Assembly (NCBI GenBank): GCA_016288855.1 | Contig: JAEELJ010000013.1 | Span: 1-64,000 of the forward strand | Length of the DNA stretch: 64,000 nt | Direction of reading: 5' to 3' | Source of the DNA: Acholeplasmatales bacterium | Lineage (GTDB): Bacteria > Bacillota_I > Bacilli_A > Acholeplasmatales > Anaeroplasmataceae | Shown: positions 45,106 through 46,979 of the stretch, piece after piece | Layout: each line of letters opens with the position of its first letter | Numbering within the stretch: the stretch's first letter is position 1 | Notes under the pieces: model-generated | Told to the model about the DNA's origin: nothing | Databases searched by the model: none | The model's input: the letters and a program-made list of their open reading frames with translations, nothing else | Translations under genes and position numbers: made by a program

Positions 45106-45660
45106 ATGAAAGAATTTAAAAAGAACACATGGTTTTATCCATTACCTGTAACAATAATTGGAACATATGATGAAAATATGAACGCTAACGCAATGAATGC
45201 TGCTTGGGCAACGATTTATGATTATAATACAGTAATATTAAACTTAGGCCATCATAAAACAACAGATAATTTAGAATTAAATAAAGCATTCACTTTAGCT
45301 TTCGCAACTAAAGATACATTAGAAGCATCAGATTATGTTGGCTTAGTATCTTTTGAAAAAGAACCTAATAAAATAAAGAATGCAGGACTTACACCAATGA
45401 AAGCTCCTAATGTAAATGCACCTTTATTTAAGGAATATCCATTAACATTAGAATGTAAGGTAAGAAGTATTGATGAGGATTACCATGTCATTGGTGATAT
45501 AGTTGCAATACAAGCAGATGAAAAAATTTTAACAGATGGAAATGTTGATCCAAAGAAGTTAAATGCGATATCTTTTGACCCAATCAACCATAATTATCTA
45601 CTATTAAGTGGTGAAATTGCAGGAGAAGCATTCAAAGCTGGATTAAAGTACAAAAAATAA
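45106..45660 (+). CDS. flavin reductase family protein
   Basis: PLPVTIIGTYDENMNANAMNAAWATIYDYNTVILNL. Confidence 0.85.
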   Translation: MKEFKKNTWFYPLPVTIIGTYDENMNANAMNAAWATIYDYNTVILNLGHHKTTDNLELNKAFTLAFATKDTLEASDYVGLVSFEKEPNKIKNAGLTPMKAPNVNAPLFKEYPLTLECKVRSIDEDYHVIGDIVAIQADEKILTDGNVDPKKLNAISFDPINHNYLLLSGEIAGEAFKAGLKYKK

Positions 45661-45718
45661 TTTAAAAAAGCGTAAATTTGTCCTACATTTGTCTACATTT
45701 TTGTGATATAATAATTGA

Positions 45719-45870
45719 TGAATTAGATAGGTAATGTAAATATTTAGATTATGTATTCCCCCAAATTTCATAAGTACTAAAATACATTATTCTACCTAAT
45801 TTAAAACAAACAATCTCTTAATGAAGTCCTCGTTTCTGTCCCCCAATAGGAACGAGGATTTCACTTTTTT
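45719..45870 (+). ncRNA. candidate structured sRNA (or leader) with two UCCCCC hairpin loops
   Basis: Extended -10 TGATATAAT (45704-45712); long hairpin AATTAGATAGGTAATGTA...TTTAG.TTATG[TATTCCCCCAAATTT]CATAA.CTAAA...TACATTATTCTACCTAATT (45721-45801); terminator GAAGTCCTCGTTTC[tgtcccccaata]GGAACGAGGATTTC + T6 (45823-45870). Confidence 0.65.
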
Positions 45871-45947
45871 ATAAGCTTTTTTATGTATTTACTTTTAATT
45901 TTATTAAAAAATTTATATAATTAATTTGTATGGAGGAATAATTAATT

Positions 45948-46979
45948 ATGGAATTAGTTTCTGCAATAATTTTAATATTAGGTGTATTCTTAATATATTT
46001 GATAGCAATGGAATTATATACAATATTATTTAGAATGACTGGATTAACAAAAGAAAAAGCTAAGTTTCAAGTTATTTCTATGATCACAACAGCCGGATTT
46101 ACTACAAGTGAGTCCGAAATAATTACATCTTCAAGAATAAGAAGAAGAATTGCTTCTGCAGCAATGATTACTGGTACATTATTCTCAGTTGTAATTATCT
46201 CATTAATAATTAACCTATTTACTAAATTACAAAATACAGATGCTAATTACTTAGAGCATGCAAAGTGGATTGGAGTTTCATTCGCAGCATTCTTTTTAAT
46301 TTTAATATTATTTAAATTACCTATAACAACAAAATTATTTGAAAAGTTTGTTGAATGGGTTGCAAACACATTCTTCCATGTTAATTCAACTAATAATGTT
46401 ATTACACAATTAGATGCATATGGTTCTGATGCAATTGAAGAAGTAACAATTAATATTGTTCCTGAAGAATTAGTAGGTAAAACATTAGCTCAATCAAACC
46501 TAAAAGCAAGATATCATTTAAATATAATGATGCTACAAAGAAATAAAAGAACAATAATTATTACTAAAGATACTGTTATTCAAAAGAAGGATGTTATATT
46601 AGTTTTTGGACCTAAAAAATTAATTGAAGATTTCTTTGATGTTACAAAGAATGTAAGTGAAGAAGATGACCTATCAATTAAGAATTCAATTACTGTAATT
46701 GATAATTATGGTGATGATGCAATTACTGAAATTGAGGTTAATATTGTACCAAATGAATTAGTAAATACACCACTTATTAAATCTGGTATTAAAAATGTTT
46801 ATGATTTAAATGTATTAACAATTAAACGTGGCGATACTTCAATTAAGGTTGATAAGGATACAGTAATTTTAGAAAATGATATTGTAGTCGTATTTGGTGC
46901 CTATAAAAACATGGAAAAATTATTTATTGAAAGTGTTATAACAACTAAAGATGAAAAAGAAGAAGCACATATCGGCTGA
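45948..46979 (+). CDS. membrane protein with two RCK_C/TrkA-C domains
   Basis: N-terminal TMs; two repeats IEEVTINIVPEELVGKTLAQSNLKARYHLNIMMLQR and ITEIEVNIVPNELVNTPLIKSGIKNVYDLNVLTIKR. Confidence 0.8.
   Translation: MELVSAIILILGVFLIYLIAMELYTILFRMTGLTKEKAKFQVISMITTAGFTTSESEIITSSRIRRRIASAAMITGTLFSVVIISLIINLFTKLQNTDANYLEHAKWIGVSFAAFFLILILFKLPITTKLFEKFVEWVANTFFHVNSTNNVITQLDAYGSDAIEEVTINIVPEELVGKTLAQSNLKARYHLNIMMLQRNKRTIIITKDTVIQKKDVILVFGPKKLIEDFFDVTKNVSEEDDLSIKNSITVIDNYGDDAITEIEVNIVPNELVNTPLIKSGIKNVYDLNVLTIKRGDTSIKVDKDTVILENDIVVVFGAYKNMEKLFIESVITTKDEKEEAHIG

Follow-up and report, generated by a model that had tools for sequence, protein, structure and literature searches.

Introduction

Several small RNAs (sRNAs) of low-GC Gram-positive bacteria, RsaE/RoxS among them, use UCCC motifs as target-binding sites (PMC4132741). 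In LhrC of Listeria, which is under the control of LisRK, the motif occurs in both hairpin loops and in the linker, and pairs with the G-rich region that precedes the start codon (PMC4132741). The CiaRH system offers a second pattern: its csRNAs, dissimilar in sequence, 51 to 202 nt long and often built of two stem-loops, share a direct-repeat promoter box and a terminator, and they make up a good share of the CiaR regulon (PMC3091779, PMC8186281).

An intergenic RNA element of an uncultured Acholeplasmatales bacterium, probably an inhabitant of the rumen, is closest to LhrC in mode and to the CiaR csRNAs in genomic logic, and belongs to neither family. It lies in a stretch of 64,000 nucleotides of contig JAEELJ010000013.1 (the window), where a sequence-only reading had singled it out as a candidate sRNA. 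Like LhrC1-5 of Listeria monocytogenes, it would be an sRNA of similar size under two-component control, in a regulon with several sRNA genes, and it has UCCC in both hairpin loops, that of the terminator included (PMC4132741). Unlike LhrC, it has no UCCC in its linker, its promoter element is a different one, and none of its sister sRNAs is a copy of it; LhrC (RF00616) is its best match in Rfam, at 19.4 bits (E = 1.5) against a gathering cut-off of 110. With the csRNAs of streptococci the element has in common the arrangement of dissimilar sRNAs under one direct-repeat box, but the box is TTTGTCCTACATTTGTCTACA rather than the TTTAAG-N5-TTTAAG of CiaR, which keeps the element out of the csRNA family. 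Its C-rich motifs are displayed in loops and not in an unpaired stretch between two stems, and the candidate kinase is LytS-like. The C-rich UCCC motif is shared with RsaE/RoxS as well. No Rfam family, riboswitches and 6S RNA included, reached its gathering score anywhere in the window. We regard the element as probably a stand-alone, trans-acting sRNA of about 150 nt with twin C-rich loops, activated by a two-component system.

Structure of the RNA element

The element spans positions 45677 to 45870, between two genes on the same strand:

45106 to 45660, forward strand: upstream neighbour, a flavin-reductase-like protein (Pfam Flavin_Reduct); same neighbour in the related genome G004
45677 to 45697, forward strand: regulator box, direct repeat TTTGTCCTACATTTGTCTACA in which TGTC recurs at an interval of 11 bp; the box lies 9 nt 5' of the -10 element
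45707 to 45712, forward strand: -10 element TATAAT, in the extended TG form TGATATAAT, read directly from the sequence
45719 to 45803, forward strand: hairpin 1, apical loop with UUCCCCCAAAUU, from folding
45757 to 45764, forward strand: C-rich loop motif 1, UCCCCCAA, from the sequence and the G004 alignment
45804 to 45821, forward strand: single-stranded linker of 18 nt, beginning ACAAUCUCUUAA, nearly identical in G004
45822 to 45870, forward strand: intrinsic terminator, hairpin 2 (45822 to 45863) and T6 (45865 to 45870), from folding, the sequence and comparison with G004
45839 to 45846, forward strand: terminator loop motif UCCCCCAA, inside hairpin 2
45948 to 46979, forward strand: downstream neighbour, a membrane protein with TrkA-C (RCK_C) domains (Pfam TrkA_C)

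The twin-loop hairpins and the terminator described in the earlier reading are borne out by direct reading and by folding. In hairpin 1 the outer arms form 8 and 11 base pairs, broken by small interruptions; inside them come two 5-bp helices and a loop of 15 nt. The same 8-mer, UCCCCCAA, is found in this loop and in that of hairpin 2. The minimum free energy of the element is -41.5 kcal/mol, against a mean of -22.6 for shuffled sequences (z = -5.2), and none of 200 shuffles was equally stable. The terminator stem, previously given as 14 bp, can be lengthened to 18 bp, in which case the loop shrinks to the 6 nt CCCCCA; its closing U-A and G-U pairs are therefore optional. The predicted transcript would start near 45719, seven bases past the -10 element, and end near 45870, for a length of about 150 nt.

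Conservation in relatives

In a BLAST search of 60 relatives, a near-full-length match to the element (76% identity) was found in one genome of the same genus, G004, where it lies between the same two neighbour genes. Short matches in G010, G029, G038, G052 and G057 came only near the E-value limit, and the two loci in G038 lack the box even when 5 mismatches are allowed. When a covariance model built on the 3' half was run against 55 genomes of the family, it found no further true members; its one additional match, in G021, proved on inspection to be an ordinary long terminator with neither box nor second hairpin.

The alignment with G004 shows the 21-bp box to be identical and loop 1 (TTCCCCCAAATTT), the linker and the terminator with its loop (CTGTCCCCCAATAG) to be nearly so. 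Of the relatives searched, G004 is the only one with the RNA, and it keeps the C-runs. Most of the hairpin 1 stem has changed in G004, yet the RNA there still folds (z = -10), and the conservation of loops on top of a changed stem points to selection acting on the loops. Between the two terminators there is one double change, G-C to A-U, and one change from U-G to U-A, with no broken pair; with two orthologs in the genomes searched, one double change is minimal covariation and falls short of statistical proof.

A promoter box shared with predicted sister transcripts

The strongest evidence about function is the regulator box, a 21-bp sequence upstream of the -10 element that was absent from the sequence-only reading. 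A search of the genome, here G000, returned eight matches to TTTGTCCTACATTTGTCTACA at three or fewer mismatches, against none for the reversed control, and a ninth match at two mismatches to a shorter, 19-base form. The boxes on contigs C45 and C49 were counted once because they appear to lie in overlapping ends of two contigs and have the same sequence, which leaves eight promoters that are independent of one another. In each, a -10 element resembling TATAAT follows the box at an identical spacing of 9 nt. The extended -10 noted previously is present in the window as TGATATAAT, but sister promoters lack it, and the feature they have in common is the upstream box instead.

Five of the eight boxes head predicted intergenic non-coding transcripts that terminate before the next gene, and three head protein genes. 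Besides the RNA in the window, these are:

Contig C7: box RNA of about 218 nt, before an SDR gene
Contig C23: box RNA of about 103 nt, before a pyrB-like gene (aspartate carbamoyltransferase, by sequence)
Contig C70: box RNA of about 139 nt
Contigs C45/49: box RNA of about 92 nt
Contig C29: two box-headed protein genes
Contig C75: one box-headed gene for a predicted secreted protein

The unpaired region of the C23 RNA reads UUUUUCCUCUUU here and UUUUCCCCCCCC in its G004 counterpart. This box-driven sRNA, ahead of the pyrB-like gene, lies upstream of a pyrimidine operon (L014, 1501-1650; L030). The secreted-type protein on C75 has 357 aa and matches no Pfam or NCBIfam family (L019, 1560-2633; in G004, L022 on contig C1); its gene and box are present in both genomes. 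All six boxes of G004 lie at loci that match boxes of G000.

A two-component regulator linked to the box

Contig C29 carries a two-component operon encoding a LytS-like membrane kinase of 477 aa, with the kinase domain His_kinase (PF06580), and a response regulator of 261 aa. The receiver domain of the regulator matches Pfam Response_reg (E = 3e-18), and its output domain matches nothing in Pfam. The predicted fold, however, aligns with those of DrrB, VanR and KdpE at a probability of 1.0 across some 230 columns, which places the regulator, by modelling, in the OmpR/PhoB type with a receiver and a winged-helix output domain; a low whole-chain TM-score of about 0.4 probably reflects the orientation of the domains. 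Direct repeats spaced by about 11 bp, as in the box described here, are the usual binding sites of OmpR-type regulators. Behind the operon are genes for proteins of about 420 aa, each with its own box and no clear Pfam family (L018, 141-1457, and L037, 196-1461, both on C29; L034, 220-1461, in G004).

Box and regulator occur together. Among 55 genomes of the family, close orthologs of the regulator (84% and 73%) were found only in G004 and G010, with paralogs of at most 45% or none elsewhere; the box is present in 3 of 27 genomes of the genus, exactly those with the close ortholog, and in each of these (G000, G004 and G010) a copy lies 23 to 37 nt behind the regulator gene. The same arrangement extends to more distant members. 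Searching the 220 nt that follow the regulator gene for the pattern TGT-N8-TGT-N14-TAnnnT, we found a direct-repeat promoter at 17 of 26 regulator-family loci, where shuffled sequences led us to expect 0.12. Behind many of the paralogs the geometry is the same but the sequence differs, one clade having the TTTGTCACATGTTTGTCACA type and a second clade TTTGTTGCANNTTTGTTGCA, and the class of box (TGTCCTACA, TGTCACA/TGTCCCA or TGTTGCA) follows the regulator tree. Linkage, co-occurrence and the match of box class to the tree are together strong evidence, at the level of sequence, that the regulators of this family read these boxes, and from linkage and co-variation we infer that the binding is direct.

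Directly upstream of the operon on C29 are a gene for an ECF-type sigma factor (L085, 6135-6674) and one for a possible membrane anti-sigma protein (L085, 5390-6151). We weighed this sigma factor as the protein that reads the box and dismissed it, because no ECF gene was seen at the G010 locus or at the five inspected paralog loci, all of which carry boxes; the possible anti-sigma gene was not seen there either.

Proposed function and alternatives

In the mechanism we propose, the kinase and regulator encoded on C29 would activate the promoter in the window, the phosphorylated regulator binding the 11-bp direct repeat that replaces a -35 element and recruiting RNA polymerase to the sRNA gene. 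The same regulator would control four other sRNA genes, the secreted protein gene and the pair of genes that follow its operon. Most likely acting in trans, the sRNA would present both of its identical loops, each with UCCCCCAA, to ribosome-binding sites rich in G and, by pairing there, block translation as LhrC does.

The target search, however, allows no target to be named: GGGGGA sites are common, show no enrichment and form no coherent conserved set. Sites of the form GGGGGA-N2-9-ATG number 25 in G000 and 11 in G004, against 16 to 31 in three other genomes searched, all of which lack this RNA. The sequence-only reading had offered such Shine-Dalgarno sequences, that of an SDR gene for example, as perfect matches to the loops; that site is one of many, and its kind is equally frequent where the RNA is absent. 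Only two orthologous pairs of G000 and G004 share a site, one an acetyltransferase-like (GNAT-like) gene and the other a gene that we take to be JetA-like, and they have no common theme. The longer match TTGGGGG before ATG occurs at eight sites in G000, none of them conserved as a target in G004, where the only occurrence is the antisense of the sRNA itself.

This outcome would also be expected of a two-component-activated sRNA whose twin C-rich loops sequester a protein or sponge another RNA in place of pairing with Shine-Dalgarno sequences, and two identical UCCCCCAA loops joined by a conserved linker would suit a bivalent binding site. The UCCC loops of other Firmicutes sRNAs, on the other hand, pair with mRNAs (PMC4132741), and we judge sequestration unlikely.

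Less probable still is a cis-acting leader or attenuator of the RCK_C gene, in which the terminator would be read through conditionally and the C-rich loops would sense something; this had been named as the main alternative at the outset. The gene order is identical in G004, and just 78 nt separate the terminator from the gene. Yet the RCK_C gene has its own Shine-Dalgarno sequence, GGAGG, no alternative antiterminator fold was seen, and the element matches no riboswitch family. A role in cis is unlikely chiefly because, in 14 other genomes of the genus, the leader of the RCK_C ortholog is short and lacks these hairpins, because the independent terminator is intact in both species that have the RNA, and because the four sister RNAs headed by the same box precede unrelated genes; the choice of an sRNA over a leader is, in our view, well supported. 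Six-frame translation reveals no convincing small gene, and translation of the 17-codon reading frame MKSSFLSPNRNEDFTFL (45821-45874) is highly improbable: its three differences from G004 in the first 14 codons are all third-position and synonymous, but they also keep base pairs of the terminator stem within which the frame sits, no Shine-Dalgarno sequence precedes its ATG, and the ends of the two peptides differ.

Candidate regulons of paralogous regulators

Returning to the two-component-activated sRNA as the preferred reading, we give about equal weight to accepting and to doubting a broader proposal: that a family of LytS-like kinases and OmpR-like regulators particular to this lineage of uncultured, rumen-type Bacilli, each clade with its own direct-repeat code (TGTCCTACA, TGTCACA or TGTTGCA), controls surface proteins together with rapidly replaced, unrelated C-loop sRNAs, independently of LisRK-LhrC and CiaRH-csRNA, the RNA in the window being a bivalent member with two UCCCCCAA loops. 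If correct, this would add an independent example of the circuit logic known from Listeria and streptococci, in which a membrane sensor acts on protein genes directly and on other mRNAs through C-rich sRNAs. For a lineage that this analysis knows only through metagenome assemblies, it would also supply a candidate regulon of five sRNAs together with their regulator and its binding code. The matched changes in regulator clade and box would, moreover, be a ready data set for reading the DNA-recognition codes of OmpR-type regulators.

The cognate boxes of the paralogs mostly head genes, many with apparent signal peptides as judged by eye, and some sRNAs. Unpaired UCCC or CCC runs occur in sister sRNAs under cognate boxes in G009 (AAUCCCUCCAAAG and the terminator loop UAUCCCCAAAA), G023 (UUUCCUUCCCUU), G025 (terminator loop CCCUCCCUACUCUCUCCC) and G010. 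Counting all box RNAs, 8 of 13 have unpaired C-runs, where shuffles give about 2.8 if base composition is kept and about 5.9 if dinucleotides are kept, the latter figure being higher because CC pairs are preserved; the enrichment is moderate and the theme of C-rich loops suggestive. In G010, the third genome with the box of the window RNA, the box stands before an sRNA of about 60 nt that is present in three tandem copies, each with UCUCCC and each consisting of GUAAGACAAAUCUCCCAAGAUGG and a terminator (L021, 1500-1900, contig C88).
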